Origin: a virus
Reading direction: 5' to 3' (one strand)
DNA length: 41,409 bases
IMG/VR virus record: IMGVR_UViG_3300037140_000143
Coordinates: 1 to 41,409 of that record
Shown here: positions 1 to 41,409 of the stretch, piece by piece
How the letters are laid out: each line of letters opens with the position of its first letter
Numbering within the stretch: position 1 is the first letter of the stretch
Notes under the pieces: generated by a model
Database searches by the model: none
What the model saw: only the letters and a program-made list of their open reading frames with translations
Told to the model about the DNA's origin: nothing
Program-made: the position numbers and the translations under genes

Positions 1-2
1 AG

Positions 3-377
3 TCTCCCGGCGCGTTGTATGAGCTTGAGCGTGTCGAATTCATCGACGGGCAGAAGATCGACCATCCCGAGGGCGGCGGCAAGGACATGGGGGACGCTCT
101 TGTCAGGGTGATCCAGCACGCGTGCGAACACGGACCGCAGGCGATGGGCTTCGGAACCGTCAAAGGCCACGGCAGTCAGTACGCGAACGCTGCCGTTATC
201 CCATCGGAGCGCAAAGCGGTCGACCCGGACCGCACCGAAACGGTCGGGGATCGCCTCCGCCTGCAGGAGGAACAGAACCGCAAGGAACGCCCCCTAGGAG
301 AGCTGGTGCCGGGGGAGGGCACCGTGGATGGTCGGAAGATGGGCTTCGGCTCGATTGGCCGGCCGGACGTGCTCTGA
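3..377 (+). CDS. Terminase large subunit, C-terminal end (partial)
   Basis: The frame is open from the left edge, so the true start lies outside the window. The visible 124 residues contain IDHPEGGGKDMGDALVRVI, which matches the conserved C-terminal end of phage terminase large subunits (typically DHP-x-G-G/S-x-KD-x-x-DAL-A). In the family this ATPase/nuclease packages DNA through the portal and its C-terminal nuclease half cuts concatemers. Only the tail of the nuclease half is visible, so no catalytic residue can be checked. The last 60 residues are charged and look disordered. Position before the portal fits a terminase. A TTG at 15 is an artefact of the window edge rather than a start. 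Confidence 0.8.
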   Translation, partial: SPGALYELERVEFIDGQKIDHPEGGGKDMGDALVRVIQHACEHGPQAMGFGTVKGHGSQYANAAVIPSERKAVDPDRTETVGDRLRLQEEQNRKERPLGELVPGEGTVDGRKMGFGSIGRPDVL

Positions 378-384
378 ACTTTTC

Positions 385-416
385 TTTGCGTAGCGTGACC
401 ATTCTTGTTACGCAAA
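385..416. promoter_or_regulatory. Inverted repeat, possible operator
   Basis: TTTGCGTA (385-392) and TACGCAAA (409-416) form a perfect 8-bp inverted repeat with a 16-base spacer. They lie in the 57-base gap between the terminase stop and a small HTH gene. The placement suggests an operator for that HTH protein. The loop is long and no U-tract follows, so it is unlikely to be an intrinsic terminator. Confidence 0.35.
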
Positions 417-434
417 CGGCATGGGTAGTTGAGC

Positions 435-671
435 ATGCCTACGGCCACCGACATCAGCCGGCTGCGCCTGATGTGCCGGGATGGCACAGCCAGGCAGGTA
501 CGAGAGGCAGCGGACCTCTCGCTCAGCGACATCGCACGCGATGTGGGATGCACTGCCGCGTCGATCAGCCGCTATGAGACCGGCCTGATCCGTCCCGGCA
601 GACGACGGGCGGTGGCTTATCTGGCGGTACTTGACGCGCTAACTAACCAGGAGAGAGATCATGGGCATTGA
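435..671 (+). CDS. Small XRE-type helix-turn-helix protein
   Basis: The protein has 78 residues from the ATG at 435; a TTG at 429 is the alternative. The stretch VREAADLSLSDIARDVGCTA followed by ASISRYETGLIRPGRRRA is a classic XRE/Cro-like helix-turn-helix with the usual S-x-Y/W-E-x-G recognition end. It lacks any further effector domain, so a DNA-binding regulator is the likely role. It sits just after the terminase and overlaps the next gene by 11 bases. The inverted repeat at 385-416 immediately upstream may be its binding site. Small DNA-binding proteins near terminase can also be terminase small subunits, which is a less likely alternative here. Confidence 0.7.
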   Translation: MPTATDISRLRLMCRDGTARQVREAADLSLSDIARDVGCTAASISRYETGLIRPGRRRAVAYLAVLDALTNQERDHGH

Positions 672-1059
672 GAGAATCCCCGAGGGGCATAAGGATGCGC
701 CCCCCGCAGGAGAGGTGTCATTCACAGGGGAGCAGATGACTACCGTGGTCGGAGAACGCGATAGCTATCGGGCTGCCTTGTATGAGGCCACAAACGCACG
801 ACTCACGGACGTCGACAAAGTTGCTGATGCGCTAGGGAAGATCGACACCCTCCACCGCGAACTGCACACGCTCTGCAAAGAGCGTGACCAAGCGCGCCAG
901 GAACTCAAGGACGCCGATCGGCTACTTGACTCGCCCTTACGGACGATCAGCTTCGGTGCAGGTGGGCTTGCTGAGCTTGCTCGAGGGCGTGTAAAGGCTC
1001 ATCGGCGGACTCGTGGCACCTACTCGCGTTATGAGCCACGTCGAAAGAAGTTCCGATGA
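661..1059 (+). CDS. Hypothetical protein with central coiled coil
   Basis: The protein has 132 residues. The start is supported by AGGAGAG eight to nine bases upstream of the ATG. Residues 40-80 are charged with heptad-like leucines and predict a coiled coil. The C-terminal 30 residues are strongly basic (RGRVKAHRRTRG and following). I do not recognise a family. The gene overlaps the HTH gene upstream and ends four bases before the GTG-type frame of the next gene, so it belongs to the same transcription unit. Confidence 0.6.
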   Translation: MGIERIPEGHKDAPPAGEVSFTGEQMTTVVGERDSYRAALYEATNARLTDVDKVADALGKIDTLHRELHTLCKERDQARQELKDADRLLDSPLRTISFGAGGLAELARGRVKAHRRTRGTYSRYEPRRKKFR

Positions 1060-2156: not shown

Positions 2157-4079
2157 TTGGCACGGACCATTTACGGACCTGACGGACAGCCGATCTCGGT
2201 AGTGGGAGGGACGCCCCTCACTAGCACGCAGGCCCTCCAACGTCTCGACCAGGACGCGATGCTCGACCAGGTTGAAAAGCGCGTCAAGAGCCAGGGCACC
2301 ACCCTCAGTCAGGTGTGGGACCCATCCAGGGGCAAGCCTAAGCCGACGTCTATCACTTATCAGACGCTCAGGATGATGGCGACCAGATGCGAATGGGTAG
2401 CGGCGGTCATCAAGACCCGCAAGAACCAGATCGGGAAGGCATCCTGGTCCGTTCTCCCCCAGGACGAGGCCGATGAAAGCCCTGGTGTTGAAGCGCTCTG
2501 CACGAAGATCACGAACCTGTTGAAGCGCCCCAGCATGCACGGCAGCCGGCCCACCTCACGGAGTTGGCGGCAGTTCATCAACGAGGTCCTCGTCGACATC
2601 CTCACCCTCGACCAGGGGATCATCGAGAAGGAGTGGACGGTCGACAAGTGGATCGCCGCGATGTACCCCGTGGATGGGGCGACAATGGCGCCGAACATGG
2701 ACGAGCGCGGCGGCTTCCACGACGACGCCTACGTGCAGGTCGTGGACGGTCAGGTCACCGCGCGGTTCGGGATCGAGGACATCATTTGGATGATGGACAA
2801 CCCGCAGACGGATGTGCGGATGTCCGGGTTCGGGTTCAGTCCGCTCGAGAACCTCATCGTGTCCGTCACCGCCGAGCTGTATGCGTCGAAGTACAACGCG
2901 AGCTACTTCGAGAAGGGTTCAGTTCCCGAGGGCTTGATCAACCTCGGCCCGGAGGCCGCACCGGAGGACGTGAACGCTTTTCGGCTGTACTGGATGAACG
3001 AGATTATGGGCCGGCCGTGGGCGATCCCGATCGTCGGCGGTTCGCAGGCTGAGTGGATTCCGTGGCGGGCTAGCAACAAAGACATGGAATACATGGCCTA
3101 CCAGGAATGGCTGTTGAAGAAGGTCTGCGCGAACTACCAGATCACGACGAAGGAAATGAACCTGATCCAGGACGTGAACCACTCCACGGCGGAGAGCGAG
3201 GATCAGAGCGAAACCGAAAAGGGCATCCAACCGCTGTTGACGCTGATCGCGGACTACTTCGAGGTCGAGGTCATCGGCGAGCACGGCCTAGGTGTCGGGG
3301 ACTACGTCAAGTTCGCGTTCGATGATGAGGAGGAGAGCCAGGAGGCAATCGACGCACGGTTCTCGATCCGCGTCGAAAAGGGCGTTGCTACCCGTGCGGA
3401 GTGGCGCGAGGCCATCGGCCTGGAACCAGGCGAAAACGAGGGCCTGGACGAGTACACCACCGACACGGAAATCTTCCCTTTGCCCGCCACGCCCGAGGAT
3501 CTGGAAGCGCTCTCTCCGGCGGCTCGTGCTGAGCAGAAGTCCGAAGAAGCGAAGGAACGCTTTGCGGAGCTAAACGCCGGCGGGAAGGGCGGGAACACTA
3601 CGGGCGAGTCCGCTCCGGAGTTCGGAAGCCCAGAGGCCGAGAAGACCGCAAAGGTTTTCGACCAGCACAACCCTCAGCTCGTTGAGCGGCAGGAGGATGC
3701 CGAGAGCGTCTTCGAGAAAGCGTCCGACAGCCTCGTCAAGGAGCTGGAGGGCATCCTACAAATGCCGCTTGGGAAGACCGTCACGATGCCGCAGCGCCGG
3801 CAGGTCAACCTGGCTGAGCTGCGCGTCGACACGGACTACCAGCGTCCCGAAGACCGCGAGAAGGTGTTGAGCATGCTCAAGCGCCTACGTGCTGGCATCG
3901 AGTTGGACGGCGATGTGAAGGTCAATGAGCGCGAAGACGGCAGTCTCTGGATCACTGACGGGCAGCATCGTGTGAAAGCGATGATGCTCGCCGGCCGCAC
4001 CCATCATGAGGCGCTTGTGGCGAAAGATCCGCAGCAGTTGGAGGAGAAACGCGCGAACCTGCTGACCGCGCATGTCTGA
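2157..4079 (+). CDS. Portal protein with C-terminal ParB-like domain
   Basis: The protein has 640 residues, starting at a TTG preceded by GGGAAGGG. Residues 1-450 match the HK97/SPP1-type portal fold: repeated short helices, WVAAVIKTRKNQIGKASWSV near residue 80, the FSPLE-LYASKYNASYFEKGSVP clip/wing region, and EWLLKKVCANYQITTKEMNL. Portals form the dodecameric DNA channel at the capsid vertex and dock terminase. Residues 460-545 are charged and linker-like. Residues 547-640 carry an unrelated module: VDTDYQRP, then SLWITDGQHRVKAMMLAG, which is the ParB/sulfiredoxin-like signature (DGQHR at about 601-605). That fold can bind and hydrolyse nucleotides or cut DNA. The next gene starts in the stop codon (TGATG). 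Confidence 0.85.
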   Translation: MARTIYGPDGQPISVVGGTPLTSTQALQRLDQDAMLDQVEKRVKSQGTTLSQVWDPSRGKPKPTSITYQTLRMMATRCEWVAAVIKTRKNQIGKASWSVLPQDEADESPGVEALCTKITNLLKRPSMHGSRPTSRSWRQFINEVLVDILTLDQGIIEKEWTVDKWIAAMYPVDGATMAPNMDERGGFHDDAYVQVVDGQVTARFGIEDIIWMMDNPQTDVRMSGFGFSPLENLIVSVTAELYASKYNASYFEKGSVPEGLINLGPEAAPEDVNAFRLYWMNEIMGRPWAIPIVGGSQAEWIPWRASNKDMEYMAYQEWLLKKVCANYQITTKEMNLIQDVNHSTAESEDQSETEKGIQPLLTLIADYFEVEVIGEHGLGVGDYVKFAFDDEEESQEAIDARFSIRVEKGVATRAEWREAIGLEPGENEGLDEYTTDTEIFPLPATPEDLEALSPAARAEQKSEEAKERFAELNAGGKGGNTTGESAPEFGSPEAEKTAKVFDQHNPQLVERQEDAESVFEKASDSLVKELEGILQMPLGKTVTMPQRRQVNLAELRVDTDYQRPEDREKVLSMLKRLRAGIELDGDVKVNEREDGSLWITDGQHRVKAMMLAGRTHHEALVAKDPQQLEEKRANLLTAHV

Positions 4080-5821
4080 TGACCGATGATCTCCTCGCGG
4101 GCCTCCGCACCCAGCTAAGCATCCCGACCCCAGCGCATGAGCTAGATGTAGTCAAGCGCTTCGGCCTCCACAAGGGTCTGCTCACCCCAAAGCGCTGGGA
4201 GGCGGTCAACGACGCTATCCAGCGGTGGAAGCAGAACGTCCTGCACGGTGCCCGGGACATGCCGCACCAGGCGTACCTGCAGGGTCATGGGCAGACCACA
4301 CGGTTCCTGCGGCTACTCGGCACCCGCGCACCAATGGTCACGCCCGCGCCTGACCGTGCGACGAGCGAGTGGCTGCGATGGCTACTCGAGCACGAGCTCA
4401 CCGGCACACTGGACCGCTACGCGGACGACATCCGCTCCGCGGTGCTGTATGGGGTGCAGGGCGAGACGAACCCCGTCAATGTCGCGAGCGCGCTATACAA
4501 GGCCACGGAAGCCGCCGATCGTGACTGGCGGCTCGTCGCACAGACCGAGATGGCACGCGCCAATGCGCTGGGCCGACTCGATGGCTGCGTGCAGATGGGC
4601 TATGACGAAGTTTGGGTCCCTCCCCATGCCGGCGCATGCGCAGCCTGCAAAGAGCTGATCGAGAATAGGGTGTTCCTCGCGAGCATCTTGAAGACGAACA
4701 GCAACTACGGCAAGAAACGCGCGGAATGGGTGCCGTGTATACCATTGCACCCCAGATGTAGTCACGCGGCTTTGCCATATGTGGAGGAGCTGTATCAGGA
4801 AGCGCAGGAGCAGTACGCGCACATGCGCGACACGGGCCTGGACGACGAGGCGCTGAGCGAGATGTTCGACACGTCCGGGCAGCTCCGACCGCAGTACGCG
4901 CACAACGAGCGCCTGGAAGCGTTCTTCGCCGGCAAGACGATCCGCGACCCCTTCGATCACATGCTCGGCCACGTCGTCGAGAAGGTCCGCTCCACGGGAC
5001 GGGTGAGCAAGGGGTTCTTCGACCCGCCGCAGGTCGGCCTCGACCCGCTGGTATGGGAAGACAAACAGCTCAAGCCGGACGTCCGCACCGCGATCCTCAA
5101 CTTCTGGACGGGCGTGCTCGGCGACGGCTGGCGGGAATGGGCGAAGGTCTACATCACCGGCTCCGCCACGAGCTACCAGTGGGGCACGGGCTGGGCGCAC
5201 CCATGGCTTGGCTCGCACCACACCCCGACCTATCCGGATGTGGACACGCACCTCGTGATCGACTACGCGCAGGTCCGCAAGGACCGACCATTGTGGGCAG
5301 GCATGAGCCCGATGGAGCTACGGAAGCTCCTGGAGTCCTGGGTCAAGCGCGCCAAGGCCGATGTCGAGGTCGCCCCCGGACTTCGACTAGACGCATACGT
5401 GCGGCTTGAGGCCACCGAGGACGAGTTCGAGCGGGACATCCGCCATACCGGTCAGGGCGTCTACGACGTCGGCGGGGACGCGTGGGTGATCGGTCCGGCC
5501 CAGCCGGCGAACGGCGAATACGTCAAGCACGGGCACATGCTCGCCGGCACCGGAGGACGACTCGCTCACGAGCACCCCGAGTGGGTGCAGCACGCCGAGC
5601 GAGCCGGGAACGAACTACAGGATCTGCTTGCGGCCTACCAAGCCGATCGAGTGCCCGGCACTCTTGAGCCACTCCAGGCACTGATGGACACCCTCTACGA
5701 CGATCGCACCATCGGGTTCCTCGACGGCAACGGGCAGGAAGACCGCGGGAACTTCACCTGGGCATACCTGTCGAACTTCGGCCCGCTGCAGGAAGTCAAA
5801 GAGCTGCTGGCCGCCGGATAA
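4079..5821 (+). CDS. MuF-like head morphogenesis protein fused to nucleotidyltransferase-like domain
   Basis: The protein has 580 residues. Residues 100-240 resemble the MuF/SPP1 gp7 head morphogenesis domain, with RLVAQTEMARANALGRLDG and a metal-binding-like set CAAC (187-190) and HPRC (224-227). These minor head proteins sit on the portal or inside the capsid. From residue 330 a second domain begins: LKPDVR, then ITGSATSYQW (G361, S362) and YPDVDTHLVID (D387, D389), with D438 a possible third acid. This is the GS-DxD pattern of nucleotidyltransferases, and related domains are known in actinophage head regions. Its substrate is unknown. MuF proteins can carry toxin domains at the C-terminus, so an effector role is possible. 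It is coupled to the portal by a one-base overlap. Confidence 0.8.
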   Translation: MTDDLLAGLRTQLSIPTPAHELDVVKRFGLHKGLLTPKRWEAVNDAIQRWKQNVLHGARDMPHQAYLQGHGQTTRFLRLLGTRAPMVTPAPDRATSEWLRWLLEHELTGTLDRYADDIRSAVLYGVQGETNPVNVASALYKATEAADRDWRLVAQTEMARANALGRLDGCVQMGYDEVWVPPHAGACAACKELIENRVFLASILKTNSNYGKKRAEWVPCIPLHPRCSHAALPYVEELYQEAQEQYAHMRDTGLDDEALSEMFDTSGQLRPQYAHNERLEAFFAGKTIRDPFDHMLGHVVEKVRSTGRVSKGFFDPPQVGLDPLVWEDKQLKPDVRTAILNFWTGVLGDGWREWAKVYITGSATSYQWGTGWAHPWLGSHHTPTYPDVDTHLVIDYAQVRKDRPLWAGMSPMELRKLLESWVKRAKADVEVAPGLRLDAYVRLEATEDEFERDIRHTGQGVYDVGGDAWVIGPAQPANGEYVKHGHMLAGTGGRLAHEHPEWVQHAERAGNELQDLLAAYQADRVPGTLEPLQALMDTLYDDRTIGFLDGNGQEDRGNFTWAYLSNFGPLQEVKELLAAG

Positions 5822-6820: not shown

Positions 6821-8458
6821 ATGGCTCCCACCAAGACCGATACCGGGCACGGCGCGCTGTTCGACAGCTTCCCCGACCGTCCGCAGTCCCTACACGGCGG
6901 CGCGAAATTCGACGAGGGGTTCAACCTCCAGCCGAAGCCTGCAGGCCGAGCTGGCAGGAACTTCGATGAGTTCGGCAACCCGACCGCACCGGAGAACGGG
7001 CAGCACGGCGAAATCTTCGACGACTGGCGCGAGTGGACCTCCATGCCAGACGCGCACGGCGGGACGATGTTCGACGAGGGCTTCGGCGAGCACACCGCCA
7101 ACCAGTCGAGTCAAGGCCCGCTGTTCGACCTCTTCCAGCCCTCTACACAGGTCAAGTTCATCTACGACGGTCAGGACAGCGAAGGGATCGTCGACCACGT
7201 ACGCCAGGACGGTGTTGTAATGGTCGCACCGCGCGGCGGAGGGAAGGCCGTGGAGGTCGATCTCGGCCAGTTCCTCGGCTACCGGTCACCGTCGATGGAC
7301 AACGCGACGACCACTGCTGAGCGTTCGACTGCCGAGGCGCCTTCCGCTTGGGATCAGATTGCGCACGGCGCTAAGCGCGGTGCGGCACCGGACATCGGAA
7401 CACCTGTACAGCCCGTCAGCGAGGGGCCGGGCAACACGAACGGGCGCTCTGACGTTGACGCTGACTGGTCAGTCGTCGATCACCTCAAGACGCTGCTAGG
7501 CGAGGACGATGTAGCGAAGGCGGCGGGTGAGCCGGGGTATAGCCATAGTGAGATCACGGTTGGAGGCCTTCGCTCTGGTATGCACGAGCACTATCACGGC
7601 AGCAATGTCATCGGCATCTCTAGCCATGCGAGTAATCGGGACGGCATCACGGCCAGTGGGATTACGGGCAGCACATCGCGGCCTCTTGCTGGTCACTTCG
7701 CATCGCATAGGGAAGCCCACCAGGCGATCGTTGCCCATCACCAAAGCCTCGGCAAGACCACTGGCTCCCTGCTCAATGTGGCGAAGGTCCGTCTCCCCAG
7801 CGAACGCCTCCGCTCCTATAGCGAGTGGTCCGGCGTCACGACGATCGCCAAGGAGGTCACGGTCGCCGAGACCGCAGTCCAGGCGGAGGAAGGCCGTGCG
7901 ACGCTCGCGGGCGCAAAGGGTGCCGGTAGCTACTGTCCGGAATGCCGGGAGCAGAAGGGCAAGCTCACGGACGACGGTCGCTGCCCGGACTGCAACACGG
8001 TCCTCAAGGCTCACGAGCCCGGCGTCATCTCACGCGAGAAGGGCGACGGCAACGGCTCTAGCGAAGACAGCTCCACACCCGGCGTCGCTGACAAGACCAA
8101 CACATCCTTCGGCGAGCTCCGCAAGGCGTTCGGCGCCGCCGCCGACCCGGGCGCCGGCGGCCAGACCGTGACATGGGATGGCTCCCCCCACTCCCAGGGC
8201 CAACAGACCGGGCAGGCCACCTCTGACCCGGATGGCCCCGAGGTCCCCGAGCGGGAGCACAAGGACAGCGACCACCACGGCAACCTGTCCGGTGTCCCAA
8301 CGACCTGCCCGCACTGCGGTCAGGTGATCGCCGAACTCGACGCCAAGACCGAGGAGGGCGCGCCCACACACAAGTGTCTTGAGGGACTGCTCGGTGTCAC
8401 CAAGACCGAGAAGGAGACCTCGGCCTTTGACGCGCTCCGCTCACTGGTAGCGGCATGA
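6821..8458 (+). CDS. Head-region protein with FD-motif repeats and zinc ribbons
   Basis: The protein has 545 residues and no family that I recognise. Residues 11-105 carry six FD motifs (at 14, 30, 48, 66, 84 and 102), in contexts such as HGGAKFDEGF, AGRNFDEFG, HGEIFDDW and HGGTMFDEGF; the last five are exactly 18 residues apart. Residues 110-160 look like a small beta domain. The middle (about 240-340) is His-rich and may be a folded domain. CPEC and CPDC (about 367-390), and a later CPHC with HKC, are two zinc-ribbon-like sets separated by a disordered Gly/Ser/Pro segment. The C-terminus ends in SAFDALRSLVAA, resembling another FD motif. It is coupled to the protease gene by ATGA, so an internal head or scaffold-associated role is likely. 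Confidence 0.7.
   Translation: MAPTKTDTGHGALFDSFPDRPQSLHGGAKFDEGFNLQPKPAGRAGRNFDEFGNPTAPENGQHGEIFDDWREWTSMPDAHGGTMFDEGFGEHTANQSSQGPLFDLFQPSTQVKFIYDGQDSEGIVDHVRQDGVVMVAPRGGGKAVEVDLGQFLGYRSPSMDNATTTAERSTAEAPSAWDQIAHGAKRGAAPDIGTPVQPVSEGPGNTNGRSDVDADWSVVDHLKTLLGEDDVAKAAGEPGYSHSEITVGGLRSGMHEHYHGSNVIGISSHASNRDGITASGITGSTSRPLAGHFASHREAHQAIVAHHQSLGKTTGSLLNVAKVRLPSERLRSYSEWSGVTTIAKEVTVAETAVQAEEGRATLAGAKGAGSYCPECREQKGKLTDDGRCPDCNTVLKAHEPGVISREKGDGNGSSEDSSTPGVADKTNTSFGELRKAFGAAADPGAGGQTVTWDGSPHSQGQQTGQATSDPDGPEVPEREHKDSDHHGNLSGVPTTCPHCGQVIAELDAKTEEGAPTHKCLEGLLGVTKTEKETSAFDALRSLVAA
6851..7135 (+). repeat. Degenerate 54-bp (18-codon) coding repeat
   Basis: Six copies of a G-x-x-F-D-x-x/F unit lie here in the N-terminal part of the 545-residue head-region protein. 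The FD pairs are at codons 14, 30, 48, 66, 84 and 102, so four of the five intervals are exactly 18 residues. DNA identity between units is modest, so the repeat is old or kept at the protein level. Confidence 0.7.
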
Positions 8459-37288: not shown

Positions 37289-37465
37289 ATGCCGGTGGGT
37301 GGCATCGTGAGCGCCCGAGAGGAGCCGCCCGTCCTGCTGCGGCGTGAGTATGTGCGTTGCCAGCGGACAGCGCAGTGTGGCTGGTCTGGGTACCGGACTG
37401 CGGATACTCGGGAGCAGCGGGAGCGGGCTTGCTGCCCGAAATGCGGCGGGCGCGTGAAGGCGTGA
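37289..37465 (+). CDS. Small zinc-ribbon protein
   Basis: The protein has 58 residues from the ATG at 37289; a GTG at 37307 is also possible. RREYVRCQRTAQCGWSGYRT and ACCPKCGGRVKA form a four-cysteine zinc ribbon (C-x5-C and C-x2-C). VSAREEPPVL at the start resembles the AAREEP repeat found further downstream. It overlaps the next gene in GTGA. Confidence 0.6.
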   Translation: MPVGGIVSAREEPPVLLRREYVRCQRTAQCGWSGYRTADTREQRERACCPKCGGRVKA

Positions 37466-37761
37466 TCCGCTTGGAGCTGGAGGAGAACGAGGCGCGGGCG
37501 CTGGCCGCGACTGTCAGGTTCGCCGACGAATGCTTCGGCGCGCTGGGGGTACGGAGTGAGCATCCGCGTGGGGGGAGCCCGAGGGCTATCGCTTTGCAGA
37601 AGCTCGCTCATGCTCTTGAGGTCGGCGAGGGGGAGCGCGCGCAGGCGCACTATGGGGAGATGCTCGCCGAGGCCCGGGTGTTTGACCGGCACCCGTGGGA
37701 CGTGTCTCCGTGGCAGCACGCGGACCGCCTGGATACGGCCGAAGGCGAGGGGCGGCGCTAA
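37462..37761 (+). CDS. Hypothetical helical protein
   Basis: The protein has 99 residues from a GTG in a GTGA overlap. It is acidic and helical, with RLELEENEARALAATVRFAD and ALQKLAHALEVGEGERAQAH. It ends in a Pro/Trp-containing tail (RHPWDVSPWQHADRL). No family is recognised. Confidence 0.6.
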   Translation: MIRLELEENEARALAATVRFADECFGALGVRSEHPRGGSPRAIALQKLAHALEVGEGERAQAHYGEMLAEARVFDRHPWDVSPWQHADRLDTAEGEGRR

Positions 37762-37970
37762 TGGTCACGGTCGCCCTGATCTTCGCCGCGTTGTCTGTGG
37801 TGGTCGTGCCGTTGCTACTCGCGCTGGCTTTGTGTGCGGCAGCCCGGATCGGCGATGAGCAGGAACGCGACGCGCTCGCGGAACTACGGGAGACCCCTGC
37901 TTGTGGGGCGCGCACTCACGCTGTCTTTAGGGATGGCGTGGGGATGCCGGACCGGAGAGGCGTCCGATGA
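37761..37970 (+). CDS. Small membrane protein
   Basis: The protein has 69 residues, starting in the TAATG overlap. VALIFAALSVVVVPLLLALA (about 4-23) is one strong membrane helix; the rest is a charged cytosolic tail with one cysteine in ETPACGARTH. The role is unknown. Confidence 0.6.
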   Translation: MVTVALIFAALSVVVVPLLLALALCAAARIGDEQERDALAELRETPACGARTHAVFRDGVGMPDRRGVR

Positions 37971-38302
37971 GCGCCGACCTACACGCCCGCGTCTGCACCT
38001 GCGGGCATACAGCGCACTGGCACAACGCGATCCTCGACGCCAGCGAGCTACGGATCAACCAGTCAGACGTCGAGCGTCAGCAGGGCCAGGGCGAATGCGA
38101 AGCGAACAAGGACTGCAAGTGCTCACGTTTCGTGGAAGGCAAAACCGATAGCTACGAATCTCTCCGACGCGAACTGCGCCTTGCGATAGAGGAGCGCGAT
38201 CAAAACGCCGAGATCGCCGAGGGCCTAGCGGAGCGTGTTCGCATGGAGCTGGACGATTACCCGGCCTATGTGAGCGCGATGGACGGACTGGTGTCGTCGT
38301 GA
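37967..38302 (+). CDS. Cys/His-rich protein with helical tail
   Basis: The protein has 111 residues. RVCTCGHTAHWHNAI and later QGECEANKDCKCSRFV fit a phage zinc pattern, C-x-C-G-H-x3-H then C-x-x-x-x-x-C-x-C-x-x-F, found in small proteins of high-GC phages. Residues 65-100 form a charged helix. It overlaps the next gene in GTGA. Confidence 0.6.
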   Translation: MSADLHARVCTCGHTAHWHNAILDASELRINQSDVERQQGQGECEANKDCKCSRFVEGKTDSYESLRRELRLAIEERDQNAEIAEGLAERVRMELDDYPAYVSAMDGLVSS

Positions 38303-38913
38303 GCGACATGGCCGAACGCGAGCTGGCACCGGAGCTGGCAAGAGAGCGTGCCGACTGGATGGAGAAGGCTGGGAAATACCTAGAGCGACTGCACGAGGCC
38401 GAACTAGAACGAGACGCCGCTAACAGACGCTATCGGGAGTTGGCCGCTGCCCGTGAGGACACCGAGCGACCGGACACGGAGACACTAGAGATCATCGAAG
38501 GGCTGTTCCGTGCGGGCTTGCGAGACGTAGAGATGTCAGTGGGCGAGCAAGAGCGACTGGTTGAACGGACCGAGCGTGTTCTCCAGCGGTATGGCAGGAA
38601 GCTCCCCACTGGGGCCATGCGGGACATCGAGCGACCGGCCACGCGCACTTCCGACGACGACCTTGCCGATCTTCAAGCGTGTGCTCAGGAGGTTCGTGAC
38701 GCCTTCGCAGGTGAGGACACAGACCAAGACAACCAGGGATTGCGGGAGGCCGCCAATGGCGTGCTGGACCACTACTTCCATCGTCGCGCCAAGTCCCTGC
38801 TGCAAGATCGCACCCTCGAAGCCGCCATGCAGCGCCTTTATCGCGCCGTCGCAGCCTCCTCACGCGATATGTCGCCGGTCGTGCGGGACACCGAGCAGGA
38901 GCCCGAGCCATGA
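38299..38913 (+). CDS. Helical protein with AAREDTERP repeat
   Basis: The protein has 204 residues from a GTG. It is almost entirely helical. AAAREDTERPD (about residues 49-59; bases 38446-38474) is one copy of a repeat that recurs in several of the following genes. It is followed by an amphipathic helix pair (TLEIIEGLFRAGLRDVEMSV). The last residues, PVVRDTEQEPEP, are nearly repeated at the end of the protein at 40391-40693. No family is recognised; its function is unknown. Confidence 0.65.
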   Translation: MSDMAERELAPELARERADWMEKAGKYLERLHEAELERDAANRRYRELAAAREDTERPDTETLEIIEGLFRAGLRDVEMSVGEQERLVERTERVLQRYGRKLPTGAMRDIERPATRTSDDDLADLQACAQEVRDAFAGEDTDQDNQGLREAANGVLDHYFHRRAKSLLQDRTLEAAMQRLYRAVAASSRDMSPVVRDTEQEPEP

Positions 38914-38914
38914 G
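38874..38914 (+). repeat. 3'-end repeat, copy 1
   Basis: These 41 bases at the end of the gene differ at only four positions from 40654-40694, which also ends a gene and also runs into the start of the next one in ATGAG. Confidence 0.75.
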
Positions 38915-39023
38915 TGACGCAATCGGAAAAGTGGTCGCCGCCGTTGTTCTCGGATGTGTCTGCGCGCTAATGCTCACGTTCACGGTCGTGTTGTGTGTGA
39001 CGATCTGGCAGGAAATCTTATGA
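38910..39023 (+). CDS. 37-residue membrane peptide
   Basis: The ORF starts in ATGA and ends in an ATGA overlap with the next gene. KVVAAVVLGCVCALMLTFTV continues VLCVTIW, one long membrane helix with three cysteines. The tight overlaps on both sides support translation. Its role is unknown. Confidence 0.55.
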   Translation: MSDAIGKVVAAVVLGCVCALMLTFTVVLCVTIWQEIL

Positions 39024-39922
39024 GCACCGATCAAGAGCGCGAGGCGCTGGTGCCGTGGAAGGTGAGGCAGAAAGAGCTGAGAGCCGCCCGGCGAGAGCAC
39101 TTCAGCAAGCACCTGCCCGGGACTCAGTCGCCTGGCGATGATTTCGCCGCTGGCTACCGTGCCGCTCTCGCTGCGAATATTCGCCTTGATCAAGTGGTCC
39201 TTGACCGCGAGGAGTGGGAGCAGAACAATCGCGCGCATAGCTTCGCATTGTTCGTGGCGGCGCTGGATAAGCCGATCGCCGCGAGCGTGCGTCGGACGAT
39301 CACCCTGGAGCGCCTGATCGAGAAGGCGAAAGAGGCGCTTATCGGCTCATCTGCCGCTGCCTGTGAGGACACCGAGCGACCGGACGAGGATGAAATCTGG
39401 CGTGTACAGCAGCTTCTCGTGAAGGATCTACGCCCCAGCCGCCAGAGAGATGCGCGAGAGATTGCGATGGCTGTCCTCGGCGTGCGGGCCGCGTCGTCCC
39501 GAGAGGCTAGGGATCTGCGGCTCGTAATCAGAGAAGCCGCTCTCGCTGCCCGTGAGGAGCCACAATCCACGATTGAGCGTATTACGGCGGAACGCGACGA
39601 TCAGCGCGAGCGGGCACTAGAGGCAGGTCGCGAAGTCGACGAGTTGGAGGACCGACTTTCTAATGCCCTCGCCGTTCGAGAGGACACCGAGCGCACGGTG
39701 CTTGATGTTTGGGTTTGCACTACCTGTGGGGAGATACAGCCTCGGCGGGGTGTTGATGCTCATTGTGCGGGTTCGGCGACGGAGGGCCTTGCTCATGTGG
39801 ACGCGCCGATGTGGGCTACAACAGCGACGATCGCTGCCCGTGAGGCCGAGCAGGCACTCGTGATTGTCGCACTGCGAACCACCGACCGGCATATTCAGCG
39901 ACGCCTAGAGACAGATGCCTGA
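39020..39922 (+). CDS. Modular helical protein with four AARE-type repeats
   Basis: The protein has 300 residues from the ATG at 39020. It contains AAACEDTERPDED (bases 39356-39384), LAAREEPQST (from 39545), LAVREDTERTV (39671-39693) and IAAREAEQAL (near 39833), each between helical segments. WVCTTCGEIQPRRGVDAHC is a small zinc-binding-like insert before the last copy. The part after the first copy, EIWRVQQLLVKDLRPSRQRD, resembles the helix after the repeat in the gene at 38299. The layout suggests domains joined by one linker. No family is recognised. Confidence 0.65.
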   Translation: MSTDQEREALVPWKVRQKELRAARREHFSKHLPGTQSPGDDFAAGYRAALAANIRLDQVVLDREEWEQNNRAHSFALFVAALDKPIAASVRRTITLERLIEKAKEALIGSSAAACEDTERPDEDEIWRVQQLLVKDLRPSRQRDAREIAMAVLGVRAASSREARDLRLVIREAALAAREEPQSTIERITAERDDQRERALEAGREVDELEDRLSNALAVREDTERTVLDVWVCTTCGEIQPRRGVDAHCAGSATEGLAHVDAPMWATTATIAAREAEQALVIVALRTTDRHIQRRLETDA

Positions 39923-40394
39923 TCTAGATCCACAAGAGTACGAAGCATTAGAGAGAGCGGAATTACTCGGAAATGGTGGAGCCATTTGGCGCGCTGCACG
40001 TAACTATTACCGCGCCGCTCTCGCTGCCCGTGAGGAGCCGCAGACAGATGGGGTAGCGGCATGGGCTGACCACGCGAACCGGATCGCGGACGCCGAGCGT
40101 GTCATCGACGGTGCAGCCTACGTGCCTGCGATTGAGGCCTACTGCGTGGTGCGCGACCTCCAAGCGATGCAAGGTGATGGTGTGCTCTATTCGCCTCAGG
40201 AGCGCGACGGGGTGTTTCGATGGGCCGCCGCCCGTGAGGACACCGAGCGACGTGATCCTGCGCTGGCGATCGTGGGGGGGCTGTTGCGCGTCGTGCGCGG
40301 TAAGGTCAGCGAGAGCGACGCGGCGACCGACATTGAGGCTGCCGAACGGTTCCTAGCGGGCGAGGAAACCGGGCGACCGAAGGTGGAGCGATGA
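39915..40394 (+). CDS. Helical protein with AARE-type repeats
   Basis: The protein has 159 residues, overlapping the previous gene by eight bases. LAAREEPQTD (40023-40042) and AAAREDTERRD (40227-40255) are two repeat copies. After the second copy a helix LAIVGGLLRVVRGKVSESDA follows, matching the helices after other copies. Function unknown. It overlaps the next gene in ATGA. Confidence 0.65.
   Translation: MPDLDPQEYEALERAELLGNGGAIWRAARNYYRAALAAREEPQTDGVAAWADHANRIADAERVIDGAAYVPAIEAYCVVRDLQAMQGDGVLYSPQERDGVFRWAAAREDTERRDPALAIVGGLLRVVRGKVSESDAATDIEAAERFLAGEETGRPKVER
40227..40255 (+). repeat. REDTERP dispersed repeat, one of the best copies
   Basis: One of five long copies of a repeat whose best form is GCTGCCCGTGAGGACACCGA followed by GCGACCGGA. 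Other copies: 38446-38474, 39356-39384, 39671-39693 and 41283-41304. A shorter sister form (GCTGCCCGTGAGGAGCC) stands at 39545-39561, 40023-40042, 40892-40911, and more weakly at 37313-37329, 39833-39846 and 41134-41145. All are in the same reading frame relative to their genes. Confidence 0.8.
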
Positions 40395-40693
40395 GCAACA
40401 TCATCAACGCGAGGATCTTCAAGGGCCAGATGCCCGATCTGGGCGGTGGGCGCAGGCACAACAAATTGCCGCCGGTGCCGCTCTATCACGTTCGCTGCGA
40501 CTGCGGGTACGCGAGGGGTCATTTTACGCAGGCGTCCGCAGAACGTGATCTTGACGAACATGCGCAACGGGAGTCCGAAGGCCGTTCTTGGGCGTATAGG
40601 GAGCCTATGTTCGTTGGGCACATTGACAAGGCCGTCCAACTCACGATCGAGCGGCCGGTCGTGCGGGCCACCGAGCAGGAGCACGAGGGATGA
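40391..40693 (+). CDS. Hypothetical Cys-containing protein
   Basis: The protein has 100 residues. YHVRCDCGYARGHFTQASAE looks like half of a zinc ribbon (CxCG), followed by a helix with DLDEHAQRES. The end, PVVRATEQEHEG, repeats the end of the protein at 38299-38913 (DNA 40654-40694). No family is recognised. Confidence 0.6.
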   Translation: MSNIINARIFKGQMPDLGGGRRHNKLPPVPLYHVRCDCGYARGHFTQASAERDLDEHAQRESEGRSWAYREPMFVGHIDKAVQLTIERPVVRATEQEHEG

Positions 40694-40694
40694 G
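40654..40694 (+). repeat. 3'-end repeat, copy 2
   Basis: The partner of 38874-38914, with 37 of 41 bases identical. Both end a gene and include the next start codon. Confidence 0.75.
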
Positions 40695-40860
40695 ATATCG
40701 AGTGCATGTGGTTGAGAGCACGCAGGCCACCTACGACATCGAGGCGAAATCCAAAAGCGACGCTGAAATCAAGGCCAATGCCCAGGACCACGGGGGCCGC
40801 GATGTGTGGGACACGGATGTCATAGCAATCACTGGAGTGGAAAGGGCTGTCGATGACTGA
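40690..40860 (+). CDS. Small hypothetical protein
   Basis: The protein has 56 residues, starting in ATGA. YRVHVVESTQATYDIEAKSK and SDAEIKANAQDHGGRDVWDT suggest a small beta-alpha-beta fold of the type often found in phage accessory proteins (strand, helix with A/K, strand ending DTDVIAITG). The function is unknown. The next gene overlaps its last eight bases. Confidence 0.6.
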   Translation: MRYRVHVVESTQATYDIEAKSKSDAEIKANAQDHGGRDVWDTDVIAITGVERAVDD

Positions 40861-41409
40861 CGAGCAGGCTGAGAACGTGGCGAAGCTGCTCGCTGCCCGT
40901 GAGGAGCCGCAGGTGGAGATCACCGTCTGGACGTGCCTGTCGTGCGGGAATCACGGTGAGGGGCAGTCGTGCGGCAACTGTGGCCATGAGGCTATGCCCG
41001 GCCGCTGGCTGGAGGCTGAGAGTGCGGAGCGCCAGTTAGAGGGGCTGCGCGCCGAACTCGCAGCCGCAGACAGAGCGTGGGAGAAATGCAAGGAGAGTCT
41101 AGAAAACGAGAAGAAACGTCGCCGTTTCCCGATCCGTGAGGAGCCACCCGCTAAGACGCACGAGTACGAGATGCCCGAGGCTGCGTGGATGGTCTTGCGG
41201 ATTCGGAGTGTTCTCGAACGGGATGGTTTCCCGAGCAACGAGGCCGAGCGGCTGGCTCACTTGATTGTCGCTGCTCTCCCGCGTGAGGACACCGAGCGAC
41301 CGGAGGAGCGACCGGAGTGGCTAATCAAAGTCTTGCAGCAAGCCAGGGCTGATTTAGCCAAAGCGGCGAGTTGGATTATCGACGTGGAACGACATGAGCG
41401 CATTCAGAC
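40853..41409 (+). CDS. Modular repeat protein with zinc ribbon (partial at right edge)
   Basis: The frame is open to the window end; 185 residues are visible. LLAAREEPQVE (40892-40911), FPIREEPPAK (about 41134) and LPREDTERPEE (41283-41304) are repeat copies. Residues 30-45 have CLSCGN and CGNCGHEAMPG, a four-cysteine zinc ribbon. A coiled coil follows (ESAERQLEGLRAELAAADRA). AAWMVLRIRSVLERDGFPSN resembles the helix units around the repeat in neighbouring genes. It extends the modular family of this operon. Confidence 0.65.
   Translation, partial: MTDEQAENVAKLLAAREEPQVEITVWTCLSCGNHGEGQSCGNCGHEAMPGRWLEAESAERQLEGLRAELAAADRAWEKCKESLENEKKRRRFPIREEPPAKTHEYEMPEAAWMVLRIRSVLERDGFPSNEAERLAHLIVAALPREDTERPEERPEWLIKVLQQARADLAKAASWIIDVERHERIQ

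Follow-up and report, generated by a model that had tools for sequence, protein, structure and literature searches.

The mosaic genes of phages are an old matter of dispute, in which random cut-and-paste is set against guidance by short homologies, and conserved joints have rarely been seen. Rickettsia palindromic elements are coding repeats inserted in frame in unrelated genes and scattered over the genome. Start-associated sequences are upstream, non-coding and regulatory, and keep a fixed position with respect to many small genes. They are named for cluster K mycobacteriophages (PMC3203893). Conserved boundary sequences have been proposed to guide homologous recombination between phage modules (PMC3029335, PMC2327257). 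Temperate-phage recombinases of the RecT/Red class make mosaics by relaxed recombination, for which annealing proteins such as RecT and Red-beta use limited homology where homology already exists (PMC3945230, PMC2327257). Domain mosaicism in phages, a shuffling of protein fragments, is described by Smug et al. 2023 (PMC10684548), who highlight receptor-binding proteins, lysins and replication proteins. Here, we analyze positions 1 to 41,409 of the IMG/VR virus record IMGVR_UViG_3300037140_000143 (referred to as the window), a contig of an uncultured contractile-tailed phage, in which portal, major head, tail sheath and baseplate genes were identified. Neighboring small genes of the window carry four short coding elements of 18–38 bp (7–12 residues). 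We consider it likely that these repeats are coding joints, and that recombination between copies shuffles the modules inside the genes.

A longer contig of the same virus, G001 (IMGVR_UViG_3300038457_000086, 67,096 b), matches window positions 1331–41409 at 99.86%, and G001rc coordinates equal window coordinates minus 254. Exact forms of the repeats also occur in six further IMG/VR contigs, of which G002, G003 and G006 belong to one lineage, while G004, G005 and G007 are further phages (approximately four lineages). All are metagenome contigs, and most of the seven that carry repeats are fragments. The terminase relatives of the window phage are distant and come from actinobacterial phages in most cases. 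Local GC content of the repeat-carrying phages is 52–63%. Besides the repeats, they have just some genes in common, at 66–96% DNA identity (for example, G003 and G007 agree at 96% over 136 bp, and G001 and G007 at 89% over 258 bp). From these sequences, the phages thus appear to draw from one gene pool.

The four elements are a start tag (N-tag, QEREALE), linker E (AALAAREEPQ), linker D (AAREDTERP) and a stop tag (C-tag, RDTEQEPER plus stop codon). Linker E and linker D (AAREDTERPD/E) have the common core CTC GCT GCC CGT GAG GA. The start tag, CAAGAGCGCGAGGCGCTGGAG (QEREALE), and the stop tag, GACACCGAGCAGGAGCCCGAGCGATGAG (DTEQEPER, with the stop codon overlapping the next start), are DNA-conserved coding elements of the same genes as the linkers. 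The initial annotation of the window had recognized AAREDTERP and AAREEPQ; both are real, but the set contains the two tags as well and passes the window end. In G001, approximately 20 copies are spread over ten small genes, each copy in the frame of its gene and on the coding strand, and reach G001rc 54.3 kb. In the window, every copy lies on the plus strand and is read in a single frame; the genes that contain the copies start near 37.3, 38.3, 39.0, 39.9 and 40.85 kb. This bears out the earlier statement that a same-frame repeat runs through five or more neighboring genes. The copies of the D1 family are dispersed there, with a spacing of 165–1049 bp. The copies at 38446–38474 and 39356–39384 are one base apart (C/T), as had been noticed. 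A pattern search recovered the previously reported positions, though the short linker E-like copies at 37313–37328 (SAREEPP) and 41132–41149 (IREEPP) are weak and could be chance or eroded.

With up to three mismatches, GAGGACACCGAGCGACCGGA is found six times in the window versus 0.02 expected from dinucleotide shuffles, and GCTGCCCGTGAGGASMC seven times versus 1.03; in neither case did any of 100 shuffles reach the count. Pattern scans gave 15 and 9 matches, on one strand only, and the reversed control gave none. The shuffles and the reversed-pattern controls rule out a chance origin of the repeats.

The joints are conserved in their codons across lineages. At positions with the same residue, codon identity between contigs is 0.921 for linker D and 0.884 for linker E, against 0.393 and 0.388 in a null predicted from codon usage (maximum of 200 simulations, 0.468 and 0.486, respectively); the copies were gathered by DNA similarity, which could bias this result. 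The flanks, beginning within a few codons of the element, are at the null level (0.443 for D, 0.391 for E). The start tag reaches 0.886 versus 0.468 for its null and the stop tag 1.0 versus 0.578, again with flanks at null. Synonymous sites are frozen inside the copies and free outside them, a contrast that the initial annotation had proposed to look for. A codon-blind peptide search of the contigs found canonical codons in 31 of 31 coding-strand matches. Duplicated modules in G001 have diverged to 76% and 86%, while no same-residue codon has changed in the linkers attached to them (Fisher p 0.016 and 0.036), so recent copying alone fails to explain the identity of the linkers.

The modules between the linkers are helical, coiled-coil or zinc-ribbon-like, and they recur in other orders, with homology often stopping at a linker. 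Module B (EFILPARF...VCDDL; 194 bp, 89%) is present in two genes. Its homology begins just upstream of linker E in both, and in the second gene it breaks off where linker D begins, at the first base. Module C (EIWRVQQL...ILGVR) begins at linker D in both of its genes and continues directly into the stop tag in one of them, and the order of Module C and the REAALAAREEP segment is reversed between these two genes. A zinc-like module, CxCGHxxxWH...C.C, sits between two linkers in G007 and forms a stand-alone gene on the plus strand of the window (37967–38302). Another cysteine-rich module is located before a linker in the 43-kb gene and also in a linker-free open reading frame at the other end of the contig. 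The varying orders and contexts, and the ends of homology at linkers, support the earlier proposal that a common linker joins the modules and that recombination at this linker shuffles them.

Comparison of the sister phages G003 and G006, which are 98–99% identical, revealed a difference of 476 bp. G006 carries the linker in two genes, at 138 (copy 1) and 614 (copy 2; G006rc). There is a single copy in G003, whose left flank is identical to that of copy 1 and whose right flank is identical to that of copy 2, so both ends of the difference lie in the linker. The crossover is located inside the common stretch CTCGCTGCCCGTGAGGAC, and the product is an in-frame fusion of the two genes. We read this difference without direction, as a loss in G003 or a gain in G006; G002, an 87%-identical relative, is without the entire locus at the corresponding place. 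A 510-bp segment of G006, associated with a repeat of about 90 bp, is also absent from G003 (G006rc 2575–3175 versus G003 8026–8115), and the two differences together indicate that repeat-mediated change happened more than once in this lineage. Related phages that differ by exchange exactly at the repeats, which the first analysis of the window had suggested looking for, are thus represented by this pair.

We propose that the parts of a gene of this family follow each other in the order start tag (QEREALE), module, linker E, module, linker D, module and stop tag (RDTEQEPER). Within a genome, or between phages infecting the same cell, general recombination at any pair of copies would then swap, delete, fuse or add modules with the frame unbroken. 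The frame would be kept because the joints share a single frame and their DNA hardly differs from gene to gene or from phage to phage. Single-strand annealing with short homologies would be the simplest route, and repeated exchange, with or without selection for it, could keep the joints identical. G001 encodes a RecT-like annealing protein (G001rc 44187–45077; phrog_4171, E 1.4e-9) and a PD-(D/E)XK exonuclease (G001rc 46197–47051; phrog_298, E 1.4e-26), and both genes sit between repeat-bearing genes; exonucleases are also present in G002 and G005. Judging from this gene content, exchange at the joints probably proceeds by single-strand annealing with the RecT-like protein and the exonuclease. 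On the other hand, no serine or tyrosine recombinase (PF00239, PF00589) was found in the seven contigs, mostly fragments, and a site-specific recombination cassette such as a shufflon or an invertase was rejected on this ground.

Other explanations differ in what they leave unaccounted for. The repeats could descend from an old paralogous family, in which the motif is a conserved structural part, such as a helix end, that stays in place. This describes well the N-terminal domain QEREALE...FEAGYRAALAAREEP, of which several genes and contigs have homologous versions that hold the motif at one set position. Some of the AALAAREEP copies lie at this one homologous place, the end of the shared N-terminal helical domain, and these may be due to simple descent, whereas the other copies are not. 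Several copies per gene, however, stand at non-homologous places with unrelated flanks, and descent with selection on the peptide predicts a codon identity of about 0.4, compared with the observed value of about 0.9. The duplicated modules diverged at synonymous codons and their linkers did not, and the G003/G006 junction also speaks against shared ancestry, which is largely refuted for the internal copies and quite unlikely as the only explanation. The initial annotation had set against its own reading a pattern of one fixed place per gene with free synonymous variation; the copies do not show this pattern. Alternatively, a DNA signal hidden in the codons (protein binding, Chi-like, replication or packaging) would make the peptide incidental and recombination a by-product, in agreement with codon-level identity across phages of such different GC content and with the single orientation. 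But the element is open in two of three plus frames and in all three minus frames, so a frame-blind DNA element would spread across five frames, whereas all listed copies are readable in the gene frame, and the repeat frame is the longest plus-strand open frame at 40 of 46 plus-strand core sites (the remaining six include likely chance matches and sites under a longer overlapping open frame). The copies are limited to one gene family, with no clear intergenic copy found in the repeat-carrying contigs, and the four different sequences are each bound to one position in the gene grammar. We regard a DNA signal as unlikely; a free DNA site by itself, one of two alternatives offered earlier, leaves the in-frame placement on the coding strand unexplained.

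The other alternative offered was a docking peptide, here a tag for a partner common to all linker proteins, with DNA identity stemming from very recent spread. Such a tag would suit the conservation in frame and the recurrence, in many proteins, of a charged sequence that ends a helix. Nevertheless, linkers are identical in duplicates whose modules diverged by 14–24%, so that recency alone fails, and the peptide varies (REEPP, REEPR, REDSE, CEDTE) where the codons hardly do. A peptide motif by itself does not explain the codon identity, and we hold the docking tag to be very unlikely. A selfish mini-element that, like the Rickettsia palindromic elements, inserts in frame into genes might produce dispersed short coding repeats and homologous modules with and without linkers, but the repeats are confined to one gene family and lie at the junctions of modules rather than in their interiors. 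The change that we observed is exchange or deletion between copies and no clean insertion, and no terminal inverted repeat was seen in the element, making this origin extremely improbable.

Reading the repeats as coding joints for recombination also has points against it. In a permutation test of the breakpoints of six block copies, 5–8 of 12 ends, depending on tolerance, lie at an element, versus a null of about 2.2–3.4 (p 0.10 to 0.006); with so few blocks, the support for linker-bounded modules is moderate. Direct recombination between near-identical genomes is seen as one event only, an assembly error at the repeat in one of the two contigs could, with low probability, account for it, and direct repeats this long could recombine without having any special role. 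The RecT profile had no match in the six contigs other than G001, though most are fragments. Furthermore, the identity of the joints may be kept by conversion, or by selection on DNA or on the peptide, alternatives that stand side by side. A mixture, in which the peptide is selected and the DNA is homogenized, may apply.

A codon-degenerate scan for AREDTERP across 2.9 million viral contigs found the seven repeat contigs only, and the copies read back from it have one codon set with single changes at most. The same scan for LAAREEP gave about 50 unrelated single occurrences elsewhere, whose mixed codons serve as a natural control. INPHARED contained no DNA match to the region, no real repeat match and no close relatives of those repeat-gene proteins that were tried, which answers the earlier suggestion to search known phages; a 38-mer had low-score matches in portal and exonuclease genes of Mycobacterium phages, which seem to be accidental. 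Scanning 84,980 prokaryote species for the exact pattern yielded six single matches, none with either native form, and a host origin was rejected. A wider family reached through the DNA of the start or stop tag was rejected as well, as the other contigs matched look like single chance matches without linkers.

The genes in the window, all on the plus strand, show how the joints are arranged. The gene at 38299–38913 consists of a helical segment, a full linker D (AAAREDTERPD, 38443–38474), a further helical segment and the stop tag RDTEQEPEP with its stop codon and ATGAG (38887–38914). It has no Pfam family at the cut-off and no PHROG, and the repeat genes have no Pfam or PHROG family above threshold. 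Two single-sequence AlphaFold runs, with mean pLDDT of 36 and 55, are too low to use and hint only that linkers follow helices. The gene at 39020–39922 begins with the start tag QEREALV (39032–39052; CAAGAGCGCGAGGCGCTG, identical in four G001 genes, G005 and G007) and a helical segment, with a truncated linker E, YRAALAA without REEP, at the end of the N-terminal domain (39155–39174). A linker D with an Arg-to-Cys change (AAACEDTERPD, 39353–39384) then starts the EIWR module that recurs in another gene, followed by linker E (AALAAREEPQ, 39536–39564), a coiled coil, a diverged linker D (LAVREDTERT, 39668–39699), a CxxC module and a partial linker, IAAREAEQ (39824–39852), in which the core GCTGCCCGTGAGG is retained. 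The Cys codon is TGT, and this rare form, GCCGCTGCCTGTGAGGACAC, is found at window 39353–39372 and at 112911–112930 of the G004 contig, in otherwise different phages, as if the copy itself had been exchanged between them.

In the gene at 39915–40394, linker E (AALAAREEPQ, 40014–40043) closes the N-terminal helical domain and is followed by a module, linker D (AAAREDTERR, 40224–40251) and a second module. The small gene at 40391–40693 is without an internal linker and terminates in the stop tag RATEQEHEG (40667–40694), followed by stop and ATGAG, with stop and start overlapping. The gene at 40853–41409 runs off the window and is complete in G001; its order is linker E (LAAREEPQ, 40889–40912), a CxxC zinc-ribbon-like module, the E-like copy IREEPP, a module and linker D (LPREDTERPE, 41276–41305). 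A tandem repeat region lies between repeat genes at G001rc 51407–51600, with a shift of about 72 bp and copies 87–93% identical. Immediately downstream of the repeat cluster, G001rc 55330–55587 has 85–89% DNA identity to G007rc 4846–5103 and to G003 1378–1598. This fragment is part of a larger gene in these two phages, a sign of recent exchange among repeat-carrying phages. At the left contig end, window 1–892 is just 86% identical to the other end of G001 versus 99.86% elsewhere, which suggests recombination or a different strain.

As for function, the proteins might be adaptors for early host takeover or counter-defence, a role in which a changing repertoire would pay. This idea is based on their small size, their modular make-up and their position near recombination genes and methyltransferase-like genes, the latter judged by eye. 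We speculate, tentatively and with more doubt than belief, that phages sharing a gene pool keep the four DNA-frozen joints as a natural grammar of protein assembly, and that lineages whose joints can still recombine would rebuild host-interaction proteins faster, which would amount to selection for evolvability. In this locus the joints can be seen within coding sequence; they are numerous, their codons are frozen in phages that are largely unrelated, and one exchange was caught between sister genomes. Guided intragenic shuffling becomes directly testable with this system, which also points to a gene family that changes fast and may act at the host interface. In addition, the joints provide a natural model for a linker tolerating the fusion of many different domains.

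The initial annotation knew of no phage system of this kind, and our literature search agrees: the open-access corpus does not contain the motif string, and no account was found of phage modules joined by linker repeats that are dispersed and in frame. PARCEL repeats likewise are short coding repeats conserved in DNA, horizontally spread and reshuffled within genomes, but they are tandem repeats of 25 residues with dyad symmetry in cellular microbes, whereas dispersed joints of 7–12 residues between unlike modules are found here in phages; membership was ruled out by this dispersal. The Rickettsia palindromic elements resemble the joints as in-frame coding repeats and differ in being longer and palindromic, while our elements are restricted to one gene family and include position-specific tags. 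Start-associated sequences also are short repeats at one position relative to many small phage genes, but those described here are coding. With the mosaicism of Smug et al., the locus shares ongoing exchange of modules inside genes, leading to mosaic proteins; in the available text of that article, the word 'linker' is absent and no common DNA joint is described. Boundary sequences are similar in that phages that otherwise differ share an identical short stretch of DNA at the borders of the modules they exchange, as far as our moderate breakpoint statistics go. Those sequences, however, lie between modules or genes, whereas the joints of this locus are intragenic, in frame and present in many copies per genome, and only the stop tag and the start tag sit at gene borders. 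RecT/Red-beta recombination would be the likely machinery, as an annealing protein and a partner exonuclease are encoded in G001, and what sets the present system apart from it is that homology is concentrated in short coding joints.

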